DNA from: a virus
Direction: 5' to 3' (one strand)
Virus record (IMG/VR): IMGVR_UViG_3300049215_000121
Location: 1 to 40,699 of that record
DNA length: 40,699 nt
In this document: one piece after another, positions 656 through 21,708 of the stretch
Position numbering within the stretch: the first letter of the stretch is position 1
Layout of the letters: each line of letters begins with the position of its first letter
The notes under the pieces: generated by a model
What the model was told of the DNA's origin: nothing
What the model saw: the letters and a program-made list of their open reading frames with translations, nothing else
Databases searched by the model: none
Program-made: the position numbers and the translations under genes

Positions 656-667
656 GGCATGCATGCC
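656..667. repeat. GGCATGCATGCC palindrome, copy 1
   Basis: Perfect 12-base palindrome, 53 bases upstream of the ATG of the late-operon HTH gene (603). A TTTAAA stretch at 636-641 lies about 17 bases downstream of it in the leftward direction, so the palindrome would cover the -35 region of a leftward promoter placed there. It is likely an operator; the binding protein is unknown. Confidence 0.6.
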
Positions 668-746
668 TTACGGCACGGCAGACTGTGGTCGGGTAGTCGT
701 TTGGGCTCAGGAGTGGGCGACACCTCACCCCTTGCGGGGATGAGGG

Positions 747-989
747 TCAGAGTCGAGGGTCGCTCGGGACGATCGGGTATGACTTTTGCAGCAGCTCAAC
801 CCCGCCGGCATTGTCCAGATTCGCGGGGAGAGCGACCGCACCGGCCGATAAGGTTCCGTTGGTTGAAAGAACGGGACGACCGGCGCGATCGCTCAAAGCT
901 ACGGCCTCAGGGCGTGAGCCCACAGGAATTAAGCGCGGTTGGATTCGGGCGAGGGCAGCGTGAAAAGGACGGACAGTGCTTTCTCTCAA
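747..989 (-). CDS. Doubtful small ORF, 80 residues
   Basis: A minus-strand frame from a TTG at 989 to TGA at 747. The translation has an ordinary globular composition (Ala, Leu, Pro, Gly, Val) with no low-complexity Arg/Ser bias, unlike the shadow frames here, and it sits in line with the late operon. Against it: no ATG or GTG start, no clear ribosome-binding site, an upstream in-frame stop only about 5 codons before the TTG, mixed third-base usage unlike the GC-rich neighbours, and no family that I recognise. It may be a decayed gene or chance. Confidence 0.25.
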   Translation of the reverse strand: MRESTVRPFHAALARIQPRLIPVGSRPEAVALSDRAGRPVLSTNGTLSAGAVALPANLDNAGGVELLQKSYPIVPSDPRL

Positions 990-1234
990 CTTCCCGATAC
1001 GTCAGCCTTCCGGGTCTTGCTTTCGCTCACCGGGGACCAGCAGCACCCTTGGGACTAGCGGGGTGATCCATCCTCTTCACGCTGCGCTCGCCTTCCTGTT
1101 CGACAGGCCGCGCACCGTATTTCCTCAGGCGTTCCCACCGCAGAGCGGCTTCGAGGTTCGGCCTGTTTTCCCGGGATGTTATCAGCGTTCCTGGTCGACG
1201 CTCTGGCAGTATTCGTGAATACCCAGCGGAGCGA

Positions 1235-1264
1235 CGGATAGGACTGGCATGCTTGCCTTGTCAA
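1235..1264 (-). promoter_or_regulatory. Candidate leftward promoter with a palindrome in the spacer
   Basis: Read on the minus strand: a perfect -35 hexamer TTGACA (1264-1259), an 18-base spacer and a weak -10 TATCCG (1240-1235). The spacer contains GGCAAGCATGCC (1257-1246), one base off the palindrome repeated elsewhere in the genome. A protein bound there would block the promoter. It would drive leftward transcription towards the late operon. The -35 match is strong and the -10 is poor, so this stays tentative. Confidence 0.4.
1246..1257. repeat. Imperfect copy of the GGCATGCATGCC palindrome
   Basis: GGCATGCTTGCC on the plus strand differs from the exact repeat at one position. It sits between the -35 and -10 of the candidate leftward promoter. 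Confidence 0.45.
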
Positions 1265-1272
1265 GCTGAACG

Positions 1273-1305
1273 AAAAACGCCCCCGGATTCACCGAGGGCG
1301 TTTTG
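1273..1305. terminator. Bidirectional intrinsic terminator
   Basis: A-run, CGCCC(C)CGG, five-base loop, CCG(A)GGGCG and a TTTT run. Because it has an A-run on one side and a T-run on the other, it can work in both directions. It lies about 80 bases downstream of the last gene of the leftward early operon (stop at 1382), where it would stop those transcripts before the late region. Confidence 0.8.
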
Positions 1306-1351
1306 CTGAGTTTTCGCCCTGCCAGAGCGACTTACTTTGCGAGGGAAACGA

Positions 1352-1368
1352 TGTGGCATGATGCCACA
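1352..1368. repeat. Related 17-base palindrome (TGTGGCAT-G-ATGCCACA)
   Basis: Eight-base perfect arms around a single central G. The core GGCATGATGCC is the repeated GGCATGCATGCC with one base deleted. On the minus strand it is preceded by TTGCAG and four bases, exactly the arrangement at the copy at 21674-21685. It lies between the wHTH gene stop and the terminator. Confidence 0.55.
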
Positions 1369-1381
1369 CCTGCAAGGACAA

Positions 1382-1714
1382 TTATTTGACGATCACATAG
1401 GCAGCCTTCGTGCCTTCCCCGATGCGGCGAATCAGCTTTTCGTCCCGCAACGCCATCAGCTGCTTCGTCATGTGCAGCGGCGACAGGCTGAACTCATAGC
1501 CGGCCTTCCTGATGGTCGAGCGCAGGTCGCCGTTCTTCAGCGGACGGTCGGCAGAGCGCAGCACCTTCAGGATCCGCTCCCGCAGCATGCCCTTCGGCGC
1601 CTTCACCGTCTTCTCGATGGCGTTGCGGATGGCCTTCGCCTTGGCCAGCTCGGTCTCCAGCCGGCGGACCTCCTGGTTCATCTTGGCGAGGGCCTGTTTG
1701 ATTGCGGGATTCAT
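1382..1714 (-). CDS. Winged-helix protein with N-terminal coiled coil
   Basis: 110 residues from the ATG at 1714. Residues about 1-40 form a charged heptad-like helix (probable dimerising coiled coil). Residues about 45-110 have the pattern of a winged helix: an ILKVLRSADRPL start, a recognition-helix region, then a wing around RRIGEGTKAAYVIVK. The start is fixed by a 4-base ATGA overlap with the stop of the upstream gene (1711-1714). An ATG at 1966 opens the same frame earlier, but that extension would run antisense-like through the preceding gene and has shadow composition. Last gene of the four-gene leftward early operon; probably a transcriptional regulator. The target is unknown. Confidence 0.75.
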   Translation of the reverse strand: MNPAIKQALAKMNQEVRRLETELAKAKAIRNAIEKTVKAPKGMLRERILKVLRSADRPLKNGDLRSTIRKAGYEFSLSPLHMTKQLMALRDEKLIRRIGEGTKAAYVIVK

Positions 1715-1953
1715 GGTTGGGCGGGTTGCTGGATGCCGACGAGGCGACAGAAGCGTTCGAAGGTCAGGAGCACGGTGCGAGGAGTGATCATGAAGTAGGC
1801 TCGGGCAATCGCCTGACTGACCCCGCGGCCCTTGTAGTGGGCGTAGAGCATGGTCAGGTTGCGATGCGTCAGAAGAGACCCCACCGTCAACAGGGAAAGC
1901 GCTGATGCCTGCACCATTTTTGCACCAGTTATCCCGCTGGGACGGGGTTGCAT
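1711..1953 (-). CDS. Small HTH-like protein, 80 residues
   Basis: Starts at the ATG at 1953, nine bases after the stop of the preceding gene, with a weak AAAAG upstream. It ends in an ATGA overlap with the winged-helix gene, which is the main evidence that this frame is translated. Residues about 38-70 (YKGRGVSQAIARAYFMITPRT) look like a helix-turn-helix of the kind seen in small phage regulators. An internal ATG at codon 13 is a possible alternative start but has no ribosome-binding site. Function unknown; DNA binding is inferred. Confidence 0.6.
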   Translation of the reverse strand: MQPRPSGITGAKMVQASALSLLTVGSLLTHRNLTMLYAHYKGRGVSQAIARAYFMITPRTVLLTFERFCRLVGIQQPAQP

Positions 1954-1962
1954 CTTTTGAAT

Positions 1963-2477: not shown

Positions 2478-2496
2478 TTTCGATTTTATGACGTGA

Positions 2497-2524: not shown

Positions 2525-2532
2525 GTCCTTTA

Positions 2533-2561: not shown

Positions 2562-2613
2562 TTTGTAGAGTTTGTATTTGACGACAAAGTGAGCGCCCCT
2601 AGTTGTCTGGGGC

Positions 2614-2814
2614 ATGGAAACCCCCCTGTCCGTTCGCCTCGGTGACCAAGGTGAAAATTTGCACAAGGTCGCCTCCCGCACCGGCCTCAAGAAGCCCGAT
2701 GTCATCAAGCTGGCTATCGAGGAACTGTTTTGTCGCTACCCGAAGGACAAGGATCTGGCTGCTGCTGTCATCCAGTTCCGCATCACCGAGAGCAAGAGGA
2801 CCGCCAAACCCTGA
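2614..2814 (+). CDS. Ribbon-helix-helix DNA-binding protein, 66 residues
   Basis: Residues 4-9 (PLSVRL) form the beta-strand and residues about 14-37 (ENLHKVASRTGLKKPDVIKLAIEE, two helices with a turn at TG) form the helix-turn-helix of the Arc/CopG/MetJ fold. The C-terminal 25 residues are charged. The ATG lies about 50 bases downstream of the candidate promoter. First gene of the rightward operon, divergent from another RHH gene, so it probably regulates one or both promoters. A canonical Shine-Dalgarno site is not evident. Confidence 0.8.
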   Translation: METPLSVRLGDQGENLHKVASRTGLKKPDVIKLAIEELFCRYPKDKDLAAAVIQFRITESKRTAKP

Positions 2815-2818
2815 TGTC

Positions 2819-3046
2819 ATGTCCGGCGAGCTGGCACAGTTAAGCGCGAAGATGGACATGGTCATAACCATGCTCGGCGCGTTGGTCGACCAGCAGAAGG
2901 CCAGCATGAAGCCGATGACGCAGGTCGCGTTTGCCAAGCGCGTCGGCCTCTCCCGGTGGACCATCAAAGCCCGCATCGACCGGGGCGAGATCATCACGAA
3001 GGGCGGGAAGATTCCCCCCACGGAATTACGCAAATTCGGCCTGTGA
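2819..3046 (+). CDS. Small HTH protein, excisionase/MerR-like
   Basis: 75 residues from the ATG at 2819, four bases after the preceding stop. Residues about 1-30 form a helix (LSAKMDMVITMLGALVDQQ). Residues about 34-70 have a helix-turn-helix of the excisionase or Cox type: TQVAFAKRVGLSRWTIKAR, then a wing-like RGEIITKGGKIPP. Such proteins bind DNA as architectural factors or regulators. No integrase is present, so a regulatory role is more likely than excision. A longer upstream frame exists but has shadow composition. Confidence 0.7.
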   Translation: MSGELAQLSAKMDMVITMLGALVDQQKASMKPMTQVAFAKRVGLSRWTIKARIDRGEIITKGGKIPPTELRKFGL

Positions 3047-3142
3047 ATCCTTCCACCCACCACACGAGCCCACACGACCACTGACCGCTCTCTCCGCTGA
3101 TGCCGGGTCGCTGTCCCGCAAAAGCCTCAACTTTCCCCTGCC

Positions 3143-3370
3143 ATGGAATACACTCACTCCCGCCCGGTTGACCCCGGTGAAGCCCTAGCGCTTAGCGCCG
3201 GTGCCTTCGACATGTGCCAGTGTGCTGACTGCCATCGTCACTTTCCGGGCGGTCAGCTGCGGTGCTATCCGCACGGCAACGTCTGCGAGGAGTGCCACGA
3301 GGACCGGCAGGACGCCGGCATCACCCGGGAGGCTTTTGGCTCCTCCCCGCGCGAACAGGAGAACCCGTGA
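3143..3370 (+). CDS. Small zinc-binding-type protein, 75 residues
   Basis: Contains CQCADC, a further Cys, then CEECH, spaced like a treble-clef or zinc-ribbon site (Cys at about residues 25, 27, 30, 41, 48, 51). Similar tiny zinc proteins are common in phage early regions, but their roles are mostly unknown. The ATG at 3143 has no clear ribosome-binding site. Its stop overlaps the next gene's GTG (GTGA at 3367-3370), which supports translation of both. There is a 96-base gap upstream with nothing notable. Confidence 0.6.
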   Translation: MEYTHSRPVDPGEALALSAGAFDMCQCADCHRHFPGGQLRCYPHGNVCEECHEDRQDAGITREAFGSSPREQENP

Positions 3371-3681
3371 GCACGTTTAACTCACACTGCCAGCTGGTGA
3401 AGGCCGGGCTCGCCCTGTCGGCTCCGACTCAGTTCGAAATCTTTGCCTTGGCGATCGCCTTCCCGCCGTCCGAGGGATTCCACGGCGCCTGCACCACCAT
3501 CCGGGACTTGAACGTGCACGGCATTTTCGCCGGGCACCTCGGCCTGACCCCGTCGAAGCAAGCTGCGGTCCGCCTGATCATTCGCACGCGGATGCAGGAA
3601 TCCGAAAGCCATGGCCACGGCAACGAGGCCATCCGGCGCGCTCAGGCTCTCGACGCCAAGCGGCAGCACCAGGTCGCCTGA
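3367..3681 (+). CDS. Hypothetical protein, 104 residues
   Basis: GTG start at 3367 coupled by a GTGA overlap to the zinc-protein gene. The sequence is globular, with a hydrophobic core segment (FEIFALAIAFPPSEGF) and an Arg-rich C-terminal helix. No family recognised. It lies directly upstream of the recombination nuclease gene (gap of 13 bases), so a recombination accessory is possible, by position only. Confidence 0.55.
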   Translation: MSTFNSHCQLVKAGLALSAPTQFEIFALAIAFPPSEGFHGACTTIRDLNVHGIFAGHLGLTPSKQAAVRLIIRTRMQESESHGHGNEAIRRAQALDAKRQHQVA

Positions 3682-3694
3682 TCACTTTCCCACC

Positions 3695-4642
3695 ATGCCC
3701 ACTGCAAACGCCCGCCCTGCCCATCAAATCCAACCCTTCAGCGCCTGGAAGGAGGGCGAGCGCGGCATCTACGCCGGCCTGCCGATGGACGTCTACCGCA
3801 AGGCTCGCGGCGTGTCCCGCACCGAGCTGGCGAGGCTCATGGAACGCCCCAGCCATCGGAACAAGGAGACGCCGTCCACCGAGGCGCAAGTCTGGGGGAC
3901 GCTCTTCAACGACCTTCTCCTTTTCGGCGACCGGAACTTCCACGTTCGGCCCGACTTCTACCCCGCGAAGGATGGGAAGACCAAGGATGCGCCGACGGTC
4001 GATAAGCCGTGGAACGGCAACGCCACCTTCTGCAGCGACTGGATGGCCGCGCACTCGGACAAGCCGATCCTGAAGTCGAGCGGTCCTCACTCGGCCGGCT
4101 GGCTCAACCGGGCATTGAAGGTCGCCTCCGAGAATCCGGCCGTCCAGCAGCTCATGCAGGGCGCCTCCTTCGAGGTGTCGCTGTTCGGCGCCGGTCCCGA
4201 GGAGCACGGCTGGCCGCTGGCCAAGGGCCGGCCCGACATCCTGAAGCTCACCGATGACGGCGGGGCGATCATCGGCGACGTGAAGACGACGGTCGACGCC
4301 AACACCCGCGCCTTCAGCCGGGACATCCTCGCCTACGGCTACCACAAGCAGTTCGCCCACTACCGGGCGATCCTGCAGAGCCTGCGCATCGCGCCTGTTC
4401 GGGCGTTCTTCATCATCGTCGAGAAGGGTGACGAGCCGCGCGTGCAGGTCCGTCAGCTGGCGGAGCGTGCCATGGATAAAGGCGACTTCGACCTCGATGA
4501 CGAGTGGGCGTTGCACCGCAGCTTCACCCTGACCGGCAGATGGCCGGATTTCCCGGACCAACAGGAGGCCGACCAGATCGGGCAGATCGACCTGCCCGAC
4601 TACATCTACCCGAAGGACGACGACATCACCCCCAGCAGCTGA
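3695..4642 (+). CDS. RecE-like PD-(D/E)XK exonuclease
   Basis: 315 residues from the ATG at 3695. The nuclease signature is clear: GRPD (178-181) and GDVKTT (194-199) supply the metal-binding D...DXK, followed by the QFAHYRA helix (about 219-225) characteristic of the RecE C-terminal/DUF3799 family. These enzymes degrade the 5' strand of dsDNA ends to give 3' ssDNA for annealing-type recombination. The N-terminal domain (about 20-90) carries the SRTELARLM helix typical of the family. The following gene is often its partner in phages. An upstream extension in the same frame is rejected because it overlaps the preceding gene in another frame. Confidence 0.85.
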   Translation: MPTANARPAHQIQPFSAWKEGERGIYAGLPMDVYRKARGVSRTELARLMERPSHRNKETPSTEAQVWGTLFNDLLLFGDRNFHVRPDFYPAKDGKTKDAPTVDKPWNGNATFCSDWMAAHSDKPILKSSGPHSAGWLNRALKVASENPAVQQLMQGASFEVSLFGAGPEEHGWPLAKGRPDILKLTDDGGAIIGDVKTTVDANTRAFSRDILAYGYHKQFAHYRAILQSLRIAPVRAFFIIVEKGDEPRVQVRQLAERAMDKGDFDLDDEWALHRSFTLTGRWPDFPDQQEADQIGQIDLPDYIYPKDDDITPSS

Positions 4643-4647
4643 ACACC

Positions 4648-5217
4648 ATGGACCTCACTCCCACCATCGTTCCGAAGTCGGACCAACTCAACGCCGACGA
4701 CCTGATCACCGGGCCGCTCACCATCCGCATCACCGCGGTCAAATCCGGGGACAAGGAGCAGCCCGTCATCATCAACTACGAGGGCGACAACGGTCACCCC
4801 TACAAGCCCGGGAAGAGCATGCGGCGCGTCCTGGTCATGCTCTGGGGCAAGGATGGGGCTGCCTACGTCGGGCAGTCGCTGACGCTCTACCGCGACCCGA
4901 CCATCCGCTTCGGCAAGGATGCGGTCGGGGGCATCAGGATCTCGCACGCGACCGGTATCACCGAGCCCATGGAGGTCGCGCTGACGGTCACGCGCGGCCA
5001 GCGGAAGCCGTTCGTGGTCGAGCCGCTGACCGTGAAGCCGGCAGACGAGTCCTTCGACCTCGCCACTTTGACCGACGTCGGGGCGAGCAAGGCCCGGGAA
5101 GGCGTCGATGCGCTTGCTGCCTGGTGGAAGACCATCCCGAAGGCCGCGCAGAAGGCGCTGAAGCCCACGCTGGACGCCGAGTGGAAGCCGACCGCCGAGA
5201 GCGTCGCCAAGAATTAA
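4648..5217 (+). CDS. Recombination-associated conserved phage protein
   Basis: 189 residues; ATG at 4648, five bases after the nuclease stop. The family is recognisable by DLITGPLTIRIT, EGDNGHPYKPGKSMRR, YVGQSLTLYRDP and GGIRISHATGI. It recurs next to phage recombination nucleases. The beta-rich N-terminal two thirds could be an OB-like ssDNA-binding fold, which would complement the exonuclease, but no experiment known to me fixes the function. The C-terminal 60 residues (AREGVDALAAWWKTIPK...) are helical and resemble tails that contact partner proteins. Confidence 0.6.
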   Translation: MDLTPTIVPKSDQLNADDLITGPLTIRITAVKSGDKEQPVIINYEGDNGHPYKPGKSMRRVLVMLWGKDGAAYVGQSLTLYRDPTIRFGKDAVGGIRISHATGITEPMEVALTVTRGQRKPFVVEPLTVKPADESFDLATLTDVGASKAREGVDALAAWWKTIPKAAQKALKPTLDAEWKPTAESVAKN

Positions 5218-5261
5218 CGGCCACAGGGCCTCAACCGAAACCCGTCACGCAAAGGAGAAAC

Positions 5262-5564
5262 ATGGCTAAGAAACCCAGCACAGAATTGCCGCTCGGAGCT
5301 GCCCCCGGGGTCGCTCCCCTCAAAATCCCGCTGATCGCGAAGGCGGTCGAGGAGTATGAGACGGCCAAACGGGAGCGCTGCAACGCATCCCCCGGCGAGA
5401 TCGCCGCCAAGCAGAAGTTGAAGGGCCTGCTCGTGGCCAACCGGGACAAGCTCCCGCTGAACGAGCTCGGGCTGCGCTACTACCGGCACGAGGGCGTGGA
5501 TTACGTCCTCGAGGAAGTCCTGAAGCGCCACACCGCCGAGGCCAGCGGCGGGGACGACGAGTAA
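5262..5564 (+). CDS. Hypothetical protein, 100 residues
   Basis: ATG at 5262 preceded by AAAGGAGAAAC, the best Shine-Dalgarno site in the rightward operon, so it may be made in large amounts. Helical and charged (residues about 25-70), ending in an acidic GGDDE tail. No family recognised. It lies between the recombination pair and the replication-type gene. Confidence 0.65.
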   Translation: MAKKPSTELPLGAAPGVAPLKIPLIAKAVEEYETAKRERCNASPGEIAAKQKLKGLLVANRDKLPLNELGLRYYRHEGVDYVLEEVLKRHTAEASGGDDE

Positions 5565-5623
5565 CGCGAGCCCTGGAGGTCACCCACCGCGGCCGGCGGT
5601 ATATCCGGCCCACCCTTTTCCAC

Positions 5624-6040
5624 ATGCTCACACCGAAAGAAATCGCCGCCGAGGCTGTCGCGCTCCTGAAGGCTGCCAAGACCAAGGCCGTCGCCGACGG
5701 CAAGACCCTGACCTGGACGGAGGTCGGCGCCATCATCGAAGGAGCCTGCACGCCGAAGACCCCGGACGCCTCGTCGAAGGCCTCCGACTTCGGAGACCGC
5801 AAGAAGGTCCCGCCGACGCCTGAGCAGGTCACGGCCTACAGCGCCTTCATCGGCTACCCGATGGACGGTCAGGCGTGGTGCGATGCCTACGCCGCCAAGG
5901 GCTGGAAGGTCGGCGACCACCGCATGAAGGACTGGCAGGCCGCGGTGCGCAACTGGAAGACGAACGGCTACGGCTCTGACGGCGTGGCGCTGGCCGGCAC
6001 AAAGAAGCCCACCGCGAGCAAGACCTACGACCGGATCTGA
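5624..6040 (+). CDS. DnaT/primosome-type replication protein
   Basis: 138 residues. The segment from about 68 to 118 (EQVTAYSAFIGYPMDGQAWCDAYAAKGW, then MKDWQAAVRNWKTNGYG) matches the C-terminal primosome-assembly domain of DnaT and of phage replication initiators, where a conserved 'KGW.. W..A..NW' helix pair binds ssDNA or helicase-loading factors. The N-terminal part is helical and lacks the initiator winged helix of complete O-type proteins. With the DnaC-like ATPase at 7650 it could load the host replicative helicase. Assignment by motif only. Confidence 0.55.
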   Translation: MLTPKEIAAEAVALLKAAKTKAVADGKTLTWTEVGAIIEGACTPKTPDASSKASDFGDRKKVPPTPEQVTAYSAFIGYPMDGQAWCDAYAAKGWKVGDHRMKDWQAAVRNWKTNGYGSDGVALAGTKKPTASKTYDRI

Positions 6041-6042
6041 CC

Positions 6043-7653
6043 ATGCTTCGTCTGAACATTGCCGACCTTTTTTGCGGTGCTGGCGGGACATCTGCCGGCG
6101 CCGTCGAGGCAGCCGAGTTGATGGGCTTCCGCGTGAAGCTGACCGCGATCAACCACTGGGACGTCGCGATCGCCACCCACACCGCGAACCACCCCGGGGC
6201 TCGTCACCTGTGCACGTCTCTGGACAACGTCGACCCTCGCAAGCTTTTCAAGGATGGCGAACTCGACCTTCTGTGGGCGTCTCCTGAGTGCACCCATCAC
6301 AGCACGGCGCGCGGAGGGAAGCCGATCAACGACCAGAGCCGCGCAACGGCCTGGTGCGTGGTCCGCTGGGCTGAGGCGCTCCGTCCGAACGTCATTCTGG
6401 TCGAGAACGTCCCGGAGTTCGAAACGTGGGGCGGCATCGGCAGCAACGGTCGGCCGCTGAAGTCGAAGCGCGGCGAGACCTTCATCGCCTGGGTCAGCGC
6501 GCTGGAAAGCCTTGGCTATTCCGTGGACTGGCGAGTCCTGTGCGCTGCGGATTACGGTGACCCGACTACGCGCCGCCGGCTGTTCGTTCAGGCTGTGCGG
6601 GGCAAGCGGAAGATTGTCTGGCCGGATCCTACGCACGCACCAGCCGAGGACACGGACCTTCTGGGCACGCGCCGGGCATGGGCGACAGCCGAGAATGACG
6701 TCATCGACTGGACGCTCCACGGCCAGAGCATCTTCGAACGCAAGCGTCCGCTCAGCGACAAGACGCTGAACCGCATCTGGGCAGGACTGGAGAAGTTTGG
6801 CCTCGGTCCATTCATGGTCCCGGGACAGGGCGACCGCAGAGGCCAGGTTCCGCGCACCCACAGCACGAAGCATCCGGCGCCAACGGTCACAGCTCAGGGG
6901 CACCTTCACCTTGCAGAACCGTTCCTGATCACCATGGAGCACAAGGGCAGCGTTCGGAGCCTGAAGCGGCCAGTCCCAACTATCACGACCGCTAAAGGCG
7001 GGGCTTTTTCTCTGGTTCAGCCGTGCCTTGTCCGCGTGTCGGGCAAAGAAGACCGTCCTGCAAGATCAGTAAAAGAACCCCTTCACACAGTCACCGCGGG
7101 AGGCGTGTCCCATGGTCTCGTTCAGCCCTTCCTGCTGCCCCAGCACAGCAGCAACAAGGCCCGGTCTGTGAAGAAGCCCGCCCCGACGGTCACGACCACG
7201 ACGCGGGGCCTGGCACTGATTGAACCGTCTCTCCTTCCCCAGCACGCGGGCGGGGTCCTGCGGCCGGTCAGCAAGCCGGCTCCGACCGTGGCGACGGACG
7301 GTGCGATCGCCCTCGTCGAGCCCTTCCTCGTGGAATACTACGGGACGGGCAAGGCCCAGAGCGTGAAGCTCCCGCTGGGGACCGCCACCTGCAAGGCTCG
7401 CTTCGGGTTGGTCCGGCCTGTCGTGATCGTCGACGGCAAGCGCTACCTTTTGGACGTTCGCTTCCGGATGCTGCAGCCGCACGAGCTGGCAGCGGCGCAG
7501 GGTTTCCGCCGGGACTACAAGTTCACCGGCACAAAGACCGAGCAGGTGAAGCAGATCGGCAACGCTGTTCCTCGCCGGCTCGCCCGGGCGCTCGTCTTGG
7601 CTGTTCAGTCACAGCGCAGCGACATCGCCCATCTTCTGGAGGACGCGGCTTGA
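6043..7653 (+). CDS. C5-cytosine DNA methyltransferase with internal repeats
   Basis: 536 residues. Motif I ADLFCGAGGTSAG (7-19), motif IV SPEC with the catalytic Cys83, motif VI ENV (121-123), motif VIII TTRRRLF (about 183), and motif X QIGNAVP near the C-terminus. The enzyme transfers methyl from SAM to C5 of cytosine. Motif IV is PEC rather than the usual PCQ. Between motifs VIII and IX the target-recognition region carries about six repeats of roughly 30 residues with a 'KxPxPTVT...LVEPFLL' pattern. Likely role: protecting phage DNA from host restriction. The ATG follows a TGACC junction. Confidence 0.9.
   Translation: MLRLNIADLFCGAGGTSAGAVEAAELMGFRVKLTAINHWDVAIATHTANHPGARHLCTSLDNVDPRKLFKDGELDLLWASPECTHHSTARGGKPINDQSRATAWCVVRWAEALRPNVILVENVPEFETWGGIGSNGRPLKSKRGETFIAWVSALESLGYSVDWRVLCAADYGDPTTRRRLFVQAVRGKRKIVWPDPTHAPAEDTDLLGTRRAWATAENDVIDWTLHGQSIFERKRPLSDKTLNRIWAGLEKFGLGPFMVPGQGDRRGQVPRTHSTKHPAPTVTAQGHLHLAEPFLITMEHKGSVRSLKRPVPTITTAKGGAFSLVQPCLVRVSGKEDRPARSVKEPLHTVTAGGVSHGLVQPFLLPQHSSNKARSVKKPAPTVTTTTRGLALIEPSLLPQHAGGVLRPVSKPAPTVATDGAIALVEPFLVEYYGTGKAQSVKLPLGTATCKARFGLVRPVVIVDGKRYLLDVRFRMLQPHELAAAQGFRRDYKFTGTKTEQVKQIGNAVPRRLARALVLAVQSQRSDIAHLLEDAA
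6868..7425 (+). repeat. Protein-level tandem repeats in the methyltransferase
   Basis: Six imperfect units, each with K(K/R/E)P.PT(V/I)T followed 15-20 residues later by L(V/I/A)(Q/E)PFL. The DNA repeats are diverged; the pattern is clearest in protein. Units start at the motifs KHPAPTVTA, KRPVPTITT, KEPLHTVTA, KKPAPTVTT, SKPAPTVAT and KLPLGTATC. Confidence 0.75.
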
Positions 7654-11113: not shown

Positions 11114-11115
11114 CC

Positions 11116-13391: not shown

Positions 13392-13394
13392 GCC

Positions 13395-13811: not shown

Positions 13812-13818
13812 CCTGACC

Positions 13819-15417: not shown

Positions 15418-15983
15418 AGATCGGCACCCGCAGCGTCCTCTTTGGCGCCCACCAGTTCCTCCTTCACCCGCTCTGCCTGGCTGTCGCCTGGACGCGCCTC
15501 TACGGCTTCCCCCGCCAGTGGCAACTCTGGCTCTGCTTCTTCGTTCACGACTTCGGCTACTGGCAGAAGCCCGACATCGACGGCAAGGAAGGCCAGCGTC
15601 ACCCGGAGATGGGGGCCCGGATCGTTCTCTGGGTCACCGGCAGCATGCACTGGCACAACTTCTGCCTCTTCCACTCGCGCCACTACGCGAAGGCCATGGC
15701 AAAGACCGCCAGCCGGCTATGCGTAGCCGACAAGCTGGCGTTCGCCGTCACCCCGAAGTGGCTCTATCTCCTGACCACCGGCTGGACCGGCGAGCTCGAG
15801 GAATACATGGCAAACGGGGCCCACGCGAAGAACCCGCCGTGCACCGACCACGAGGTCTGGTGCCTGAAATCAGGTATCCCTGGCTTCTGGCACGACGGTC
15901 TCCGGAGCTACATGATCAGGTGGACCGCGAAGCATCACCACGACCAGGACGACGCCTGGACCAAGCTGGAGACCAGCCGTTGA
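15414..15983 (+). CDS. HD-domain-like phosphohydrolase (tentative)
   Basis: 189 residues; ATG at 15414 in an ATGA overlap. FFVHDFGYW (42-50) supplies an HD dyad (H45-D46). H63, H87/H90 and a later CVADKLA with D106 fit the H...HD...D pattern of metal-dependent phosphohydrolases. The hydrophobic N-terminal half (residues about 8-45) could be core helices or membrane-associated. HD enzymes in phages often act on nucleotides (dNTP or (p)ppGpp hydrolysis), but the substrate cannot be told from sequence. Confidence 0.5.
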   Translation: MKIGTRSVLFGAHQFLLHPLCLAVAWTRLYGFPRQWQLWLCFFVHDFGYWQKPDIDGKEGQRHPEMGARIVLWVTGSMHWHNFCLFHSRHYAKAMAKTASRLCVADKLAFAVTPKWLYLLTTGWTGELEEYMANGAHAKNPPCTDHEVWCLKSGIPGFWHDGLRSYMIRWTAKHHHDQDDAWTKLETSR

Positions 15984-16003
15984 CCAGCAAAGGCATGCAT
16001 GCC
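15980..16003 (+). promoter_or_regulatory. Possible internal promoter/operator before the resolvase gene
   Basis: TTGACC (15980-15985), five of six matches to a -35, overlaps the stop of the HD-like gene. It is followed six bases later by the GGCATGCATGCC palindrome (15992-16003). No good -10 follows. The only break of more than 20 bases in this stretch of the coupled operon is here, which suggests a second control point for resolvase and deformylase. Confidence 0.35.
15992..16003. repeat. GGCATGCATGCC palindrome, copy 2
   Basis: Exact 12-base copy, 24 bases upstream of the chosen ATG of the resolvase gene. An alternative ATG (15995) lies inside the palindrome in the resolvase frame. Confidence 0.6.
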
Positions 16004-16027
16004 ACTGCTCCACGTGGAACAATTCCC

Positions 16028-16537
16028 ATGACCTACCCCAACGGCCCGAAAATCCTCGCCCTCGACCTCGCGACAAACGTCGGCTGGGCCTGCCTCTCGA
16101 ACGGCATCATCACCCACGGCGAGGAGTCCATGAAGCGGATCCACGGCCTGAAGCGCCAGCCCGACGAGCATCTGGGGGCTGCCTTCTTCAAGTTCCGCAA
16201 CTTCCTGACCGACTCCATCCACCTGCACAAGCCCGAGCAGCTCGTCACGGAATACACCGGCTTCTTCAAGAGCGCCCCGGCCCGGGACATCTGCTGCGGG
16301 TTCCGCGGCATCCTCCTCGAGGTCGCTGCCCGCAATGACCTGCCGGTGTTCAGCTACGCCCCCGGGACGATTAAGAAGTTCTGGCACGGGTCTGGGAACG
16401 CCGACAAGGACGCGATGATCGACCAGGCCGAGATGCGCGGCTGGGGACGGCTCGGGCCCGACGAGTGCGACGCGATCGCGATGCTTCATCTCCACATCGA
16501 CAAAACCTCAACTCCCGACGCCCATGCCGCTCCTTAA
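16028..16537 (+). CDS. RuvC-like Holliday-junction resolvase
   Basis: 169 residues from the ATG at 16028. An RNase H-fold nuclease: ILALDLATNVGWA gives the first Asp, VTEY the Glu, and GPDECDAIAMLHLH the final acidic pair, in the order and spacing of phage RuvC-like resolvases. It would cut branched DNA during recombination or before packaging. An in-frame ATG at 15995 would add 11 residues, but it lies inside the GGCATGCATGCC palindrome, so I prefer 16028. Overlaps the deformylase gene by 14 bases. Confidence 0.8.
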   Translation: MTYPNGPKILALDLATNVGWACLSNGIITHGEESMKRIHGLKRQPDEHLGAAFFKFRNFLTDSIHLHKPEQLVTEYTGFFKSAPARDICCGFRGILLEVAARNDLPVFSYAPGTIKKFWHGSGNADKDAMIDQAEMRGWGRLGPDECDAIAMLHLHIDKTSTPDAHAAP

Positions 16538-16985
16538 ACCCACCGACGACCGCCTCTACCAGGTCTGCGAGCCCGTCGCCGACATCAACGCCCAGGTTTG
16601 GCCGGTCATGCCCGACATGCTCCACCAGATGAACCGCGCGAAGTGGGCGGTCGGACTCTCGGCGCCGCAGCTCGGGATCATGCTCCGGTTTTTCTGCTAC
16701 CGGAACCCGGCGATCAGCTACGTCATCAACCCGATCATCCTGGAGCGCTCGAAGGAGGTCGTGCTCGGCCGCGAGAGCTGCCTGTCGTGGCCCGGCCGCT
16801 GGGGTGTCGTGCCGCGCCACAAGACCATCCGCTGCCGCTGGACCGACGAGCGGGGCACGCTGATCGAGCGCGAGGTCGTGGGACTCTACGCGAAGGTCTT
16901 CCAGCACGAGATCGACCACCTCGACGGGAAGACGATCTTCCCGCGGCCGGAGGTCAGGCAGCCGAAGCCGGAGGAGCAGAAGTGA
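16524..16985 (+). CDS. def: Peptide deformylase
   Basis: 153 residues. All three metalloenzyme motifs are present: GLSAPQLG (44-51, for GxGxAAxQ), ESCLS (84-88, for EGCLS) and HEIDH (128-132). The metal ligands Cys86, His128 and His132 and the catalytic Glu129 are retained. The enzyme removes the formyl group from nascent proteins. Phage versions are known mainly from marine cyanophages. Motif I has Ser in place of the first Ala and motif II has Ser for Gly. It overlaps the resolvase by 14 bases and is coupled by GTGA to the next gene, so it is a fixed operon member. Confidence 0.85.
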   Translation: MPLLKPTDDRLYQVCEPVADINAQVWPVMPDMLHQMNRAKWAVGLSAPQLGIMLRFFCYRNPAISYVINPIILERSKEVVLGRESCLSWPGRWGVVPRHKTIRCRWTDERGTLIEREVVGLYAKVFQHEIDHLDGKTIFPRPEVRQPKPEEQK

Positions 16986-17359
16986 GGCAGGACTGGTCAC
17001 ACCTCGAGAACGCCCGCAAGCGGACCGGACCCTACGCCAGCGCCGAAGGGGAACAGCACGGCGCGTTCTACCTGAAGCGCGGCCGGACCGAGTTCATCGT
17101 TATCGCCTCGCAGGGCATGACGGAGATCCCGTGGGAGCACGTGTCCGCCCGGGCCTTCGACTACAAGGGCGAGCGCGTGCCCAGCTGGGACGAGATGTGC
17201 TGGCTGAAGGACCAGTTCTGGGACCCCGAGGAGTGCGTGGTGCAGTTCCACCCGCCCCGGTCCGACTACGTGAACAACCACCCGAACGTGCTGCACCTGT
17301 GGAAACCGTGGGGCGAGATGCCGCGGCCTCCATCGATCGCAGTCGGCATCAAAACGTGA
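16982..17359 (+). CDS. DUF7694-type small phage protein
   Basis: 125 residues, GTG start in a GTGA overlap with the deformylase stop. The pattern EFIVIASQGMTEIPWEHVSAR, VPSWDEMCWLKDQFW, VVQFHPP..DYVNNHPN and LHLWKPW is that of a conserved phage family (DUF7694 as I recall it) with no established function. The fold looks compact and Trp-rich. A longer upstream frame is antisense-like and rejected. Confidence 0.65.
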   Translation: MRQDWSHLENARKRTGPYASAEGEQHGAFYLKRGRTEFIVIASQGMTEIPWEHVSARAFDYKGERVPSWDEMCWLKDQFWDPEECVVQFHPPRSDYVNNHPNVLHLWKPWGEMPRPPSIAVGIKT

Positions 17360-17478
17360 AGACCGCCTTCGCCTACCTATTCCGCCGTGTGCGGCGCCTG
17401 GTCGAGATTCCGCCCGAGTTCATCGGCGGGGACCCTCGCTGCACCATCACCGTCAACCTGCGCCCGTTCTCTCCATGA
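17356..17478 (+). CDS. Tiny coupled ORF, 40 residues
   Basis: GTG start at 17356 in a GTGA overlap with the preceding stop; ends in an ATGA overlap with the next ATG (17475). Basic first half (YLFRRVRRLVEIPPEF), beta-like second half. Its placement exactly between two overlap junctions is the evidence that it is translated, since without it there would be a 115-base gap. No function known. Confidence 0.5.
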   Translation: MKTAFAYLFRRVRRLVEIPPEFIGGDPRCTITVNLRPFSP

Positions 17479-17900
17479 AGCTCTACCACTTCACCTCCGG
17501 CCAGCACATGGCCATGATCCACATCGCCGGCATCACGAAGGGCGTCATCCCGTGGTCCATGAATTCCGACGGGCAGGTCGGCATGGTCGCCGGCTGGCAG
17601 TGGCTGACCGAGAATCCGGACTGGCAGCAGGAGTGGGCCCGGCCGAGCCCGTTCTCGAAGCTGACCTTTCGGCGCGACGAGTGGCGCATCACCGTCGAGA
17701 TCCCGTCCGCTCAGGTCCGCCGGCTCGTCTCGTGGAAGGAGGTGGACCGCACCCGCCGTCCCGCCTCGGCCGACTTCATCAACACCTTCGCCGACGCCCA
17801 TCTATGGCACCTCTTCAAGGGGCCCATCCCGCCGGACTGGTTCGCCGCCGTGGACCGCAACCCGACCCGGCACGACCTGGTCATCACGGACCAGAACTGA
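17475..17900 (+). CDS. Hypothetical protein with YHFT start, 141 residues
   Basis: ATG coupled by ATGA. Begins LYHFTSGQHMAMIHIAGITKG, followed by GWQWLTENP and a beta-rich section (KLTFRRDEWRITVEIP). The opening resembles the first strand and helix of ADP-ribosyltransferase-fold proteins such as DarT-like or KptA-like families, which begin with a similar H/Y-HxT motif. The catalytic Glu of those families is not obvious, so the link is weak. Function unknown. Confidence 0.55.
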   Translation: MKLYHFTSGQHMAMIHIAGITKGVIPWSMNSDGQVGMVAGWQWLTENPDWQQEWARPSPFSKLTFRRDEWRITVEIPSAQVRRLVSWKEVDRTRRPASADFINTFADAHLWHLFKGPIPPDWFAAVDRNPTRHDLVITDQN

Positions 17901-17902
17901 CC

Positions 17903-18163
17903 ATGGCCTACACCGACGGCCTCATTGCCTATGGCGTCTCCGCAGTGCTCCCGCGGGTGCTCGACGATCCGAACGCCGGCAAGCTGGTCCGGCTCAGGAT
18001 GCGGAACGACGAGATCATCACCGGCTACTTCCGGAAGGAGGACGGCAGCTTCAGCCGGTGGTCGATGCGCTGGACGGACGACAGCCAGACCTGCCTGATG
18101 CCGCTCTACCCCATGGGAGCGAACGTCCGGCCTACTGGCGGAAGAACAGCCAGCCGCCGATGA
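17903..18163 (+). CDS. Hypothetical protein, 86 residues, last of the rightward operon
   Basis: ATG at 17903 in a TGACCATG junction. Beta-rich core (LVRLRMRNDEIITGYFRK, then FSRWSMRWTDDSQTCLMPLYPM). No family recognised. Its 3' end overlaps the 3' end of the opposite-strand zinc-ribbon gene by 32 bases (18132-18163). Confidence 0.55.
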   Translation: MAYTDGLIAYGVSAVLPRVLDDPNAGKLVRLRMRNDEIITGYFRKEDGSFSRWSMRWTDDSQTCLMPLYPMGANVRPTGGRTASRR

Positions 18164-18287
18164 TCAAGCCGAGGATGACGGCAACAAGGATGCCGCCGGC
18201 GCTGGTGTAGGTCTTCCCGCAGTGCGGGCAGGTGCGGGCATCGCTGGCGATCTGCTTGCCGCAGGATTTGCATTTGATCAGGGCCAT
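18132..18287 (-). CDS. Zinc-ribbon membrane protein, 51 residues
   Basis: Minus-strand gene inside the rightward cluster. CKSCG...CPHCG (residues 6-24) is a zinc ribbon of the kind found in zinc_ribbon_2-type proteins, followed by one transmembrane helix (GGILVAVILGLIIGGWLFF). The ATG at 18287 has a good GAGGA ribosome-binding site 6 bases upstream, better than most genes here. The ribbon would lie in the cytoplasm with the C-terminus in or across the membrane. Probably a separately transcribed moron; role unknown. Confidence 0.7.
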   Translation of the reverse strand: MALIKCKSCGKQIASDARTCPHCGKTYTSAGGILVAVILGLIIGGWLFFRQ

Positions 18288-18370
18288 GGTGGGTTCCTCG
18301 CAGGTGGTTTCGGACGTTCCCGACCTTATCGCCAGCCCGGAACCGCGTGGCAAGCCCATCCCCGGGAGCT

Positions 18371-18394
18371 ACTGGCTTGTAAGAGCCAGTTTTT
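18371..18394 (+). terminator. Intrinsic terminator ending the rightward operon
   Basis: ACTGGCT (18371-18377), six-base loop, AGCCAGT (18384-18390), then a run of T to 18394. It separates the long operon from the methyltransferase gene at 18405, whose ATG follows only 11 bases later. Confidence 0.75.
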
Positions 18395-18404
18395 CAGCCA
18401 TGGA

Positions 18405-19214
18405 ATGACCCTGATGCGCGTCGGTGATCTCATTCCACAACTCGTGAAGGACCGAATCCGACTTCTTCGAGCGTCACGTTCCTTTTCAACATACGCCGAA
18501 GCAGCGGCCTCCATCGCCGAGGGCTATGATTCTGACGAGGTGGCTTTAGTGGTGTCACGAAAGACCGCCGCTGCGCGCGAACAGATGCCGACCACCGTTA
18601 TAGCGAAGCCGGAAGATGTCCGCGTGCTGGCGGCGCTTCGCCTTGTTGAATCATCGGACGTGATCCGCGTGCTGGACTTCGGGGGCGCTGCTGGGACGCA
18701 TTACCTCTTCGCCCGGCATGTGCTCCCTCGCAACGTCCGGCTGAACTGGTGCGTGGTCGAGACGCCGTCGATGGTGCGAGTGGCTTCTCCCTTGATGGCG
18801 AACGAGGAACTGACCTTTGCCAGTTCGATTGCCGAAGCAGTGCAGCGGATCGGGTTGCCTGATTTGGTCTTTTCCAGCGGAGCCGTGCAGTATGTTCCGG
18901 ACACCGTCGCCACGGTGAACGAATTGCTGGCTATCGGTGCCAAGGCTATCTTCCTGACCCGGTGGGGGCTGACGGATGGCGCTCAGTTCTCCATCGTGCA
19001 GACGAGCGCCCTTTCCTCGAACGGCCCGGGCCCGCTCCCTGCTGGGTTCTCCGACCGCCTAGTGCGCTATCCCGTAACTTTTGTTAATCGTCAGACTATC
19101 GAAACGGCCATCCGGGCACGCTATTCCTTGCCGCTGGTCCTGGCCGAGGCCCCGAAGGCCTATCCCACCCGCGCTGGTTGGGTGCCGATGTTCGGGTTTT
19201 TCGGGGTGTCCTGA
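18405..19214 (+). CDS. TIGR04325-type SAM methyltransferase
   Basis: 269 residues from the ATG at 18405. VLDFGGAAGTHYLF (89-102) is the SAM-binding loop, followed by CVVETPSMV (around 118) and LVFSSGAVQYVPD, the signature of the TIGR04325/LIC12133 family. These enzymes occur in surface-polysaccharide loci, so this one could modify host LPS or capsule, for example to exclude other phages. The gene is bracketed by terminators (18371-18394 and 19242-19265), and its third-base usage is visibly less GC-rich than the operon before it. Both fit a moron acquired by transfer. How it is transcribed past the upstream terminator is not clear; its promoter may lie within 18290-18400. Confidence 0.75.
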   Translation: MTLMRVGDLIPQLVKDRIRLLRASRSFSTYAEAAASIAEGYDSDEVALVVSRKTAAAREQMPTTVIAKPEDVRVLAALRLVESSDVIRVLDFGGAAGTHYLFARHVLPRNVRLNWCVVETPSMVRVASPLMANEELTFASSIAEAVQRIGLPDLVFSSGAVQYVPDTVATVNELLAIGAKAIFLTRWGLTDGAQFSIVQTSALSSNGPGPLPAGFSDRLVRYPVTFVNRQTIETAIRARYSLPLVLAEAPKAYPTRAGWVPMFGFFGVS

Positions 19215-19241
19215 ATCGCAGGATGCCACCGCCCGGCCAAT

Positions 19242-19265
19242 CCCTGCCACGTGGCGGGGTTTTTT
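19242..19265 (+). terminator. Intrinsic terminator after the methyltransferase gene
   Basis: Stem CCCTGCC / GGCGGGG (one U-G pair), ACGT loop, followed by TTTTTT (19260-19265), 28 bases after the stop. Confidence 0.85.
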
Positions 19266-19285
19266 ACACTCAGTCTGGGTCAAGA

Positions 19286-19297
19286 GGCATGCATGCC
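19286..19297. repeat. GGCATGCATGCC palindrome, copy 3
   Basis: Exact copy in the convergent zone between the rightward methyltransferase gene and the end of the leftward late operon. No gene starts nearby, which weakens a purely promoter-linked role for the repeat. Confidence 0.6.
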
Positions 19298-19398
19298 ACC
19301 CCGGGCTTGTAAACGAGGCGTATTTCTGCACCGTCTTTTCCGGAGAGAGGCAGACGGCCCGCGACGAGGGCATACAGGTCCGCGCAGACTACGCTTCA

Positions 19399-19430
19399 GA
19401 GGCCGGTGGGGGTGACACCCTGCCGGCCTC
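19399..19430. terminator. Long hairpin at the end of the late operon
   Basis: GAGGCCGG (19399-19406) and CCGGCCTC (19423-19430) pair perfectly, with further pairing of GGG with CCC inside. It lies 20 bases past the stop of the last late gene. There is no T-run, so it may be a Rho-assisted terminator or an RNA 3'-end stabiliser. Confidence 0.5.
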
Positions 19431-19450
19431 ACCGTTTACAGCCAGGGGTG

Positions 19451-19696
19451 TCAGGCGCGCTCCGGCTCGTGCCAGGTGCCCGGCAGCTTGTCGGCCGCGT
19501 CCTGGGGCACGCTGGTCCGCCAGATGACGTTCTCGAAGCCGTCGTTGCTGCCGTCGGTGAAGACCTGCAGCTGCACGACCGACTTCTCCGTCGGTTCCTT
19601 ATCCCAGACGCGGACGATGACCGCCGGCCGGTGTTCGCCCTTGCTGGGGCCTTCGTTGAGGACGTAGTGAACGGTTCTGCCGACGGACGGGATCAT
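19451..19696 (-). CDS. Hypothetical protein, 81 residues, last gene of the late operon
   Basis: Beta-rich small protein: GRTVHYVLNEG, HRPAVIVRVW, SVVQLQVFTDGS. The shape resembles small SH3-like barrels found at phage genome ends, but no family is certain. The leader CAACCC at -15 (19711-19706) matches that of the capsid genes. Downstream is the long hairpin. Confidence 0.6.
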   Translation of the reverse strand: MIPSVGRTVHYVLNEGPSKGEHRPAVIVRVWDKEPTEKSVVQLQVFTDGSNDGFENVIWRTSVPQDAADKLPGTWHEPERA

Positions 19697-19725
19697 GGGA
19701 TTCGAGGGTTGAGGTTGACGGAAAC

Positions 19726-20019
19726 TTAGGGGGAACCCGGCGTGGTCGGACGCCTGCGGTCCTCCCGGGCCTGCCGCTGCAGCTCCTGCTTGATCCAGCC
19801 GACATCGTTCACGAGCACGTCGATCTTGCGGAGGTCCTTCTCCACATCGTCGAGCCGGGCCTTGATGACGGGCACCTCGTCGACCTGCGACTTCAGGTTC
19901 GCCCAGCCGATGCCGATGGAGCCGGCAAGGATGACGACGGAGATCAGGAGTGCACCGGGGAGCGTGAAGAGCTTCTCGGCGGTGACCTTGACGGGCTTGT
20001 CTTCGGTGGCGTTGCTCAT
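19726..20019 (-). CDS. Membrane protein with coiled coil, XhlA-like
   Basis: 97 residues: a short polar N-terminus, one transmembrane helix (ALLISVVILAGSIGIGWANL, about 23-42), then a heptad-rich helix (DEVPVIKARLDDVEKDLRKIDVLVNDV). This reverses the order of XhlA, where the TM is C-terminal, and is closer to an inner-membrane spanin or holin accessory. It sits beside a DUF1353 protein and a lipoprotein in the expected lysis region, so a lysis role is likely. Confidence 0.55.
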   Translation of the reverse strand: MSNATEDKPVKVTAEKLFTLPGALLISVVILAGSIGIGWANLKSQVDEVPVIKARLDDVEKDLRKIDVLVNDVGWIKQELQRQAREDRRRPTTPGSP

Positions 20020-20032
20020 GGGAGGAGTGAGG

Positions 20033-20443
20033 TCAGTTCCAGCGCGAGCCCCCGCGGGCGCGGACGGCGAGGTAGACGACGAAGGCCTGCGCCTTGCGGG
20101 CCCCGCAGACTAGCATGGCCTCGCGGAGCACCTGGTCGGCCTGCTCCCGGCTGAAGGTCACGCGCGACCCGAGCCCGAGATCCCCGCGACGGGTGTAGAG
20201 GTAGTCGTGGATGACCGACGGGAACAGGATGCAGGGGTCGTCGTCATCGACATACCACAGGGCGGCGCGCGGGATGCTGGCGAAGTCGGTCACGAATCCG
20301 GCCGGCACGACGATCTCCCCGAAGGTGTCCGACAGGTAGCGGAACTCCTCGCGCAGCTGGAAAAGCGCTCGGGTGCTTTCGGCGTTGCGGACCTCCTCAG
20401 GCCCCAGCGCGCGAATGACGAGGGGTAGCGGGAAGGAGCTCAC
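20033..20443 (-). CDS. DUF1353 family protein
   Basis: 136 residues, GTG start in a GTGA overlap with the lipoprotein gene. VPAGFVTDFASIPRAAL (about 46-62) and VIHDYLYTR (about 77-85) are the defining motifs of DUF1353, a family common in phage lysis and tail-end regions. The conserved Asp and His residues suggest a metal or catalytic site, but no activity is established to my knowledge. As no endolysin is recognisable here, this is one of the candidates for cell-wall hydrolysis. Confidence 0.7.
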   Translation of the reverse strand: MSSFPLPLVIRALGPEEVRNAESTRALFQLREEFRYLSDTFGEIVVPAGFVTDFASIPRAALWYVDDDDPCILFPSVIHDYLYTRRGDLGLGSRVTFSREQADQVLREAMLVCGARKAQAFVVYLAVRARGGSRWN

Positions 20444-20745
20444 TTGTTCGCGGCGGGCGAGAGCGTGGTCGCGGCCTGCACGTCCACCTCGATCAGGGGG
20501 ACGTAGACGTTCGAGTGGCGGAAGTGCACGTGGCCGCCGACCATCTTGCCGTCCGGGGTGATGGTCACGTCCTCACCCGTGAAGGAGGTGGCGCTGAACT
20601 TGCCGGTCACGGTCGCGGTGATCGACTTGTATTCGCCCGGCGGGATGACCTTGGCGACGTCGGCTTGGACGGTGCTGCAGGCTGAGAGGGCGAGAGCAGC
20701 GGCCCCGAGGAGGGCGGCGATGACGAGTCGGAGGCGGTTATTCAT
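20440..20745 (-). CDS. Lipoprotein, possible outer-membrane spanin component
   Basis: 101 residues. Signal peptide with lipobox LSAC (acylated Cys23), then a beta-rich mature domain (EYKSITATVTGKFSATSFTGEDVTITPDG). ATGA overlap with the preceding gene. Larger than typical Rz1 and not proline-rich, so it could be a unimolecular-type or unrelated lipoprotein. It may act in outer-membrane disruption or in superinfection exclusion. Confidence 0.65.
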   Translation of the reverse strand: MNNRLRLVIAALLGAAALALSACSTVQADVAKVIPPGEYKSITATVTGKFSATSFTGEDVTITPDGKMVGGHVHFRHSNVYVPLIEVDVQAATTLSPAANK

Positions 20746-21116
20746 GGGACGGAGGGTTTCACCTCTGCCGGCTTGTCCACCTTGAACTTGTTCTGGGTCG
20801 CGTAGGCCAACACCGCCACGAAGAACGGGTTCAGCACCTTCACCCAGAGCGTCGCGTATTGATGCCAGGACATGGCGGCGAGGGAGGCGGCGTCGAGGTG
20901 CTGGAAGACGTCGATGAAAGCCGACGCGGAGGCGGTCAGGCCGAAGAGGATGGCGATCGCGTAGGCCGCGGCGTTGCTGCCGGCTTCCCGGGCTACACCA
21001 TCCCGGACGGCGACGAAGATCGGGCGGATGTCCTGTTGCACCCGCCAGAAGCAGATCAGGAAGATCAGGAGGACCGTCAGCGGCCAGACGATGGAGTCAG
21101 CGACGAAGGGGTTCAT
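20742..21116 (-). CDS. Holin-like membrane protein
   Basis: 124 residues from the ATG at 21116 (MNPF). Three hydrophobic segments: VWPLTVLLIFLICFW, AYAIAILFGLTASASAF and VLNPFFVAVLAYA, with a charged cytoplasmic tail. Size, topology and place before a lipoprotein and DUF1353 gene suggest a class I holin. A GTG at 21146, directly after the upstream stop, would add ten polar residues. I prefer 21116 because a GTGGACAT element lies 20 bases upstream, as before other late genes. Confidence 0.6.
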   Translation of the reverse strand: MNPFVADSIVWPLTVLLIFLICFWRVQQDIRPIFVAVRDGVAREAGSNAAAYAIAILFGLTASASAFIDVFQHLDAASLAAMSWHQYATLWVKVLNPFFVAVLAYATQNKFKVDKPAEVKPSVP

Positions 21117-21146
21117 GCATCTTGCCTGATGTCCACCCTCAGTCAC

Positions 21147-21659
21147 TCACGGCTTCTTCAAAATAGGTGATAGCCAGGTCAGCACCGTGCCGGGGATGTT
21201 CGAGTTCGCATCGAGGTTCAGGTCCTCGCGGGTGAGCAGCTTCAGGTCTAGCGTCTGCTCCAGGTCCTGCAGCTTGCGGACCTCGTCGGAGAACTTCGCC
21301 TTCAGGACGGGCGACTTGTCGATGGATTCCCCCGTGCCGTCAGGGCTGACAGCCTTCACCGTGGCGAGCACCGCGGCGTCGTAGGTGTCCTTCGCGCGCT
21401 TGACCGCAGCCAGGTCGTCGGCGATGGCCCACTTCGCGGCGGGCGGGAACTTGTAGCCCACCGGCATCACGAGCGAGGGACGCTCGGCGCCGTTCTGGTC
21501 ACGGCCCTGCGGGATTTCCTTCTGGTAGCCGTCCAGAGCGGTCAGGCCGGCATGCAGCTCAAGGATCGCGGACACCTTGAGCTTGACGGGTTCCGCAAAA
21601 GCGGAAGCGGCCGACAGGACGACCGCGAAGAGAAGAACGGGGAGGCGGTAAATATTCAT
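21147..21659 (-). CDS. Secreted protein with Sec signal peptide
   Basis: 170 residues. A clear signal peptide (RLPVLLFAVVLSAASAFA, cleavage after AFA near residue 22), then a helical, charged mature domain. No catalytic motif recognised. It directly precedes the holin-like gene and follows the palindrome at 21674-21685. It could be a periplasmic lysis factor, spanin-like or an unrecognised muralytic enzyme. Confidence 0.6.
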   Translation of the reverse strand: MNIYRLPVLLFAVVLSAASAFAEPVKLKVSAILELHAGLTALDGYQKEIPQGRDQNGAERPSLVMPVGYKFPPAAKWAIADDLAAVKRAKDTYDAAVLATVKAVSPDGTGESIDKSPVLKAKFSDEVRKLQDLEQTLDLKLLTREDLNLDANSNIPGTVLTWLSPILKKP

Positions 21660-21673
21660 CGGCCGCTTTGTGT

Positions 21674-21685
21674 GGCATGCATGCC
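21674..21685. repeat. GGCATGCATGCC palindrome, copy 4
   Basis: Exact copy 15 bases upstream of the ATG of the secreted-protein gene. On the minus strand TTGCAG (21695-21690) lies four bases before it, the same TTGCAG-N4-palindrome order as at 1375-1352. Confidence 0.65.
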
Positions 21686-21708
21686 TCTACTGCAAGCCTA
21701 CGCGAGGC

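Follow-up and report, generated by a model that had tools for sequence, protein, structure and literature searches.

A palindrome repeated ahead of putative late units in a probable Verrucomicrobiota phage: candidate binding sites for a phage-specific regulator

The DNA analysed here (hereafter, the window) is the whole virus record IMGVR_UViG_3300049215_000121, 40,699 bases long with 65% G+C, and the element under study is a 12-base palindrome, GGCATGCATGCC, which occurs in it in four exact copies (656-667, 15992-16003, 19286-19297 and 21674-21685), where an earlier note on this DNA had placed them. The protein families recognised in the window (terminase, portal, RuvC, helicase-loader and DNA methyltransferase) mark the record as a tailed phage. 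Its host is probably a member of the Verrucomicrobiota, since Verrucomicrobia phage P8625 (22% identity) is alone among sequenced phages in having a terminase that aligns over most of its length, and many Verrucomicrobiota genomes hold full-length relatives of this terminase. Both record ends (1-14 and 40686-40699) carry the 14-base direct repeat CGGCTGGACGCACC, and for this reason the genome may be circular or nearly complete. A plus-strand operon (2614-19214) holds the nucleic-acid genes, and a minus-strand operon with the virion genes runs from the terminase (40,639) down to 19,451, preceded, across the record ends, by the gene of a 178-aa protein (67-603, minus strand); four small minus-strand genes (1382-2432) lie between the region of this gene and the plus-strand operon. 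The label "late" is used here on the basis of gene content and not of timing data.

Three of the exact copies stand at the head of a putative late unit. The first (656-667, minus strand, within the 14-mer AGGCATGCATGCCA) stands 52 bp from the start codon of the gene that opens the terminase/structural operon; the 178-aa product of that gene has a weak HTH_28 match and homologs in three related phages (G001, G440 and G442). The second (15992-16003, plus strand) is inside the 44-bp gap 5' of ruvC, 24 nt from the start codon of this gene, which encodes a RuvC-type Holliday junction resolvase (16028-16537, plus strand). The fourth (21674-21685, minus strand) is 14 bp ahead of the start codon of a 170-aa protein with a signal peptide (21147-21659, minus strand; ortholog in G001); in the presumed lysis cassette that this protein opens, a small membrane protein and a lipoprotein-like one come next. 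The third copy (19286-19297, plus strand) occupies a convergent gap, between the intrinsic terminator of the plus-strand operon (19242-19259, plus strand) and a strongly folding stretch. Besides these, two imperfect relatives named in the earlier note were recovered: a one-mismatch copy, AGGCAAGCATGCCA (1246-1257, minus strand), placed between the -35 and -10 of a sigma-70-like promoter, and a variant dyad, TGTGGCATGATGCCACA (1352-1368), in which the half-sites of the palindrome (GGCAT/ATGCC) belong to 8-bp arms around a single base. The same note had pointed to short motifs beside some copies, and these are indeed there: TTGCAG-N4-GGCAT is found on the minus strand at both 1352 and 21674, and TTGACC is present at 15980, yet it overlaps the TGA stop codon of the preceding gene.

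Four copies are far more than base composition would supply. Markov models of order 1 to 5 predict 0.004-0.014 copies of GGCATGCATGCC in the window, and the observed number (a density of ~98 per Mb) stays very unlikely even when corrected for the 4096 12-base palindromes that are possible. GCATGC alone is without clear enrichment (21 observed, against 15-19 expected), which argues that base composition is not the cause of the repeats. Additionally, noncoding DNA makes up only 5.5% of the phage, and all four exact copies fall in it (in the gaps 604-1381, 15984-16027, 19215-19450 and 21660-21708), a placement with a chance of ~9e-6; they are also the only intergenic dyads whose unspaced arms reach at least 6 bp. 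As for copies with a single mismatch, the one at 1246-1257 is noncoding and the other, at 29104, lies in coding DNA. The palindrome is a real, non-random element, so that the earlier argument against chance holds, and it is probably functional.

The copies also have a direction. All four are embedded in AGGCATGCATGCCA, in which asymmetric A/A flanks surround the palindrome, with minus orientation at 656 and 21674 and plus orientation at 15992 and 19286. The 14-mer points the same way as the next gene at 656, 15992 and 21674, as does the 1246 variant (an agreement with a chance of about 1 in 8). Beyond these 14 bases the four copies share no flank, and they look therefore as if held by selection rather than recently duplicated. 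We give an even chance to the reading in which the repeats are DNA binding sites of one phage-specific dimeric regulator that gates the late units. In this mechanism, a single regulator would sit at the head of each later-acting unit (the terminase/structural operon, ruvC, the presumed lysis cassette and whatever the convergent gap makes), and its binding would set the time at which each of them is transcribed. What the window itself shows is that the site is repeated, lies in noncoding DNA, belongs to a directional 14-mer that faces the same way as any gene following it, and is missing from the early promoter region (see below); that a protein binds there as a dimer, and that the units act late and are controlled together, is inferred.

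The distribution of the motif outside this phage was examined in IMG/VR relatives and in genomes of the presumed host phylum. The six relatives with a terminase or portal 57-66% identical to that of the window are G001, G439, G440, G441, G442 and L085, of which G439, G441 and L085 are fragments; the phage family is a mosaic. None of the six carries the motif, so that its placement is not conserved in related phages (G442 has one place at one mismatch from it). Among 388 Verrucomicrobiota genomes, the 12-mer was found in 106, mostly in one or two copies and never in more than six, which is far from the density seen in the phage. In the two Verrucomicrobiota loci with paired copies that were read, the flanks differ from those of the phage 14-mer. 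A Verrucomicrobiota repeat in L226 (9026 and 9942), in which the core GGCATGCATGCC lies inside CGGGCGGCATGCATGCCGCCC, is REP-like and also has other flanks. A scan of viral contigs for the 14-mer returned 69 contigs with one copy per stretch; when 43 of these were searched whole, one had a second 12-mer and none had more than two copies. The corresponding scan of genome contigs gave, among the matches listed, occurrences scattered over phyla, and in the literature the 12-mer was found only in two papers on unrelated subjects. Being absent from the relatives and rare in Verrucomicrobiota, the element is neither a host repeat nor family-wide, and judged from these searches the palindrome set is specific to this phage. 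Phage-specific site sets are usual for phage operators. As a separate observation, G001 (L080/L081) has a repeat of its own, AGAGAACTTGAA, which occurs five times (contig 18556, 19505, 25822, 26109 and 30202), each time immediately 5' of a minus-strand start codon.

The same data bear on whether a phage regulator is needed at all, given that copies at gene boundaries in a mosaic family could simply be a module-boundary sequence or the site of a host factor. We consider this improbable: the motif is not abundant in any of the 388 genomes (at most 6 copies, with other flanks in the two loci read), and there is no longer shared flank of the kind that recombination seams would leave. A REP-like host repeat was likewise rejected, at 0-6 copies per genome in these genomes, which cover the presumed host phylum only. 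Restriction or methylation sites and a MITE were considered for the palindrome and dropped.

Concerning transcription signals, a single good sigma-70-like promoter lies near the copies, the one the earlier note had seen around the 1246 variant, TTGACA-N18-TATCCG (1264-1235, minus strand), which has 9 of 12 matches, a score reached by 3 of 400 random stretches. Just upstream of it, on the minus strand, is a terminator-like hairpin (1274-1304), flanked on either side by T/A runs. The best promoter pairs near the exact copies (-35/-10, 15-19 bp apart) reach 7-8 of 12 matches, as random stretches do, and no common -10 was found downstream of the copies. At 21674 the start codon is only 14 bp from the copy, which leaves no room for a full promoter downstream of an activator site. 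The element is not a sigma-54 promoter (it has GG-N7-GC and not the GG-N10-GC of TGGCAC-N5-TTGCW), nor an intrinsic terminator (no copy is followed by a T run or is among the terminator-like sites). The early divergent promoter region (2433-2613) contains neither a copy nor a half-site, and a lambda-type early/late operator set is therefore unlikely. Thus, of the earlier proposal of operators for an early/late switch, the operator part gains from the sites at the heads of late units, from the high density relative to the presumed hosts and from the copy within a promoter, whereas the switch finds no site where one would be placed. As to the effect of binding, blocking is slightly favoured over activation, because a sigma-70-like spacer is filled by the 1246 copy and the remaining copies lack a clear promoter.

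Blocking could also take the form of stoperator-like roadblocks, with an immunity repressor bound at dispersed sites to halt elongation across the late units while the phage is dormant. Stoperators occupy short intergenic gaps and are oriented with transcription (PMC9283540, PMC6550527); the sites described here, small in number, do the same, and copies 2 and 4 lie in gaps of 44-49 bp between co-directional genes, without a clear promoter. We regard this as the main rival, although a rather unlikely one, given the palindromic core, the presence of only four exact and two variant copies instead of 20-30, the absence of sites from the early promoter region and the lack of an integrase or ParA-like gene among the larger proteins scanned.

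Several observations weigh against the reading of one dimeric regulator at the late units. No promoter recurs at a constant distance from copies 1-4, copy 3 does not stand ahead of any protein gene, and a plain symmetric dimer site would have no need of asymmetric flanks such as the A/A ones seen here. No relative with a terminase or portal 57-66% identical carries the motif, so that function is without support from conservation. The candidate regulators are a 110-aa winged-helix-like protein with a weak HTH_12 match (1382-1714, minus strand), an 80-aa protein that is HTH-like by eye only (1711-1953, minus strand), a 66-aa protein that is ribbon-helix-helix-like by eye, with a fold search that was not significant (2614-2814, plus strand), and, as a further candidate, the 178-aa HTH protein of the late operon. 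None of the four could be tied to the palindrome. No relatives of the winged-helix and ribbon-helix-helix proteins were found in viral contigs, and a search among phages found none of the 80-aa or the 178-aa protein; for the latter, the search of viral contigs found only G001. AlphaFold gave a poor model of the 178-aa protein (pLDDT 45), and that of the 66-aa protein (69) had no significant fold match.

Two of the sites adjoin strongly folding DNA. Directly after the last base of copy 3 begins a 156-nt stretch (19298-19453) whose plus strand, at -83.7 kcal/mol and z -5.9, ranks first among 812 windows scanned on both strands; the minus strand also folds well (z -4.3), and the stretch may encode a structured noncoding RNA or act as a bidirectional terminator. 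The second-best window (801, minus strand) falls between the 656 and 1246 copies, within a 778-bp gap where 668-1240 (z -3.45 on the minus strand, -1.19 on the plus strand) is a candidate large structured noncoding RNA. This gap (604-1381) is without plausible genes, and has GNRA-type loops and a 26-nt inverted repeat (948-973/1067-1092). In both candidates the strand with the better fold is that of the palindrome. Rfam gave no match at gathering score (the weak ones were chance-like), and no homologs beyond chance-length matches were found in phages, relatives or Verrucomicrobiota genomes. As a control, relatives were scanned too, and windows at z -4.9 to -5.9 turned up there, one of them inside the portal gene, so that good folding by itself is no proof of an RNA; both stretches are candidates only. 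The second role that had been suggested for the copy at 19286 is consequently half borne out, as this copy does adjoin the best-folding stretch of the genome, where an RNA is no more than a candidate.

These stretches lend something to an RNA-level alternative, in which the transcript forms a GGCA-UGCA-UGCC hairpin read by an RNA-binding protein or nuclease between genes: every copy has a stop codon or gene start close by and faces one way along the transcript. Since the stem is only 4 bp, is not always present in the predicted fold and stands at varying distances from the start codon (52, 24 and 14 nt), we lend this possibility little credence.

Two bp past copy 2, upstream of ruvC, lies a parS-like 16-mer, TGCTCCACGTGGAACA (16006-16021, plus strand), with one mismatch to the parS palindrome TGTTNCACGTGNAACA, whose form in the host phylum is TGTTCCACGTGGAACA. 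The latter occurs in 18 of 39 Verrucomicrobiota genomes, one to three times and always on one contig, with no matches for a reversed control, and on sequence grounds this is how chromosomal parS is distributed. In the 2.11 Mb of compared DNA, only this phage and G001 have a place within one mismatch of TGTTYCACGTGRAACA; at two mismatches there are six more, five of them in the distant relatives L089/L090, which share two places. The near-parS site of G001 and one of those in L090 are in predicted coding DNA, and no parAB was recognised in the phage. The site is thus best treated as a lead and not a finding; if ParB bound such sites, this would point to phages making use of the chromosome-partition sites of their hosts. 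L090 also has, at 3918-3959, the adjacent palindromes TGTTTCCCGGGAAACA (with the look of a parS/Noc-site hybrid) and TGTTCCGCGCGGAACA, the second of which recurs at 6038 within a gene.

Could the repeats then serve the replication or maintenance of the phage chromosome (as origin, terminus or partition sites) and not its transcription? Of the six sites, three are in or at the edge of the 778-bp noncoding gap and a fourth is roughly half a genome distant, in the convergent gap; the near-parS site is 2 bp from copy 2; extrachromosomal mycobacteriophages have RNA-based origins adjoining parS (PMC7157519). The chance of this appears small to us, as no parAB or initiator protein was recognised, the sites are scattered and not arranged as iterons, and the G+C skew tracks gene direction. 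A broader scheme, in which the 14-mer controls two new noncoding RNAs (~570 nt ahead of the terminase operon and 156 nt in the convergent gap) together with the late genes, in a phage that persists as an episome through host ParB at the near-parS site, is highly improbable. Apart from the repeats, the segment 17171-17303 (133 bp) is 84% identical to Pseudomonas phages PaSz-4 and PSA39, which suggests gene exchange between phages with distant hosts.

To our knowledge, very little has been established about gene control in Verrucomicrobiota phages. A directional and strictly conserved 14-mer at the heads of late units is ready bait for the regulator of a poorly studied phage group, and a means of testing whether Verrucomicrobiota phages use dispersed control sites.

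Among known systems, the stoperators of cluster A mycobacteriophages (L5, TipsytheTRex) are similar in being short, dispersed and oriented sites in small intergenic gaps, forming a phage-specific set. Nevertheless, they are asymmetric, 13 bp long and bound by a monomer, and number 20-30 copies that include the early lytic promoter, whereas here a perfect 12-bp palindrome with only its A/A flanks asymmetric occurs 4-6 times, with no site in 2433-2613 and no known repressor. The large phage RNAs GOLLD and ROOL resemble the left-hand gap in being a well-folding noncoding region of ~600 bp in a phage, and differ from it in that the region of the window has no Rfam match, homolog or nearby tRNAs. 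With respect to the parS of Verrucomicrobiota, it is the 16-mer beside copy 2 that comes within one base of it, the palindrome GGCATGCATGCC itself not being parS. A more distant family member, G006 (38%), has a promoter-like repeat, CTTGACAACCTGCAC, in four copies (L083/L084; contig 6034, 15786, 20668 and 21223), which is likewise one short element at several places, on one strand, although it includes the -35 hexamer itself and is unrelated in sequence to the palindrome. The operators of small dimeric regulators of phages or plasmids (CopG, Arc and KorA type) share with the set described here a short palindrome at promoters or gene starts, with small HTH- or ribbon-helix-helix-like genes nearby; they differ in that most copies here have no recognisable promoter and none of the candidate regulators could be tied to the site. 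Most likely, then, the kind of element (docking sites for a regulator) is already known, and its sequence is new.

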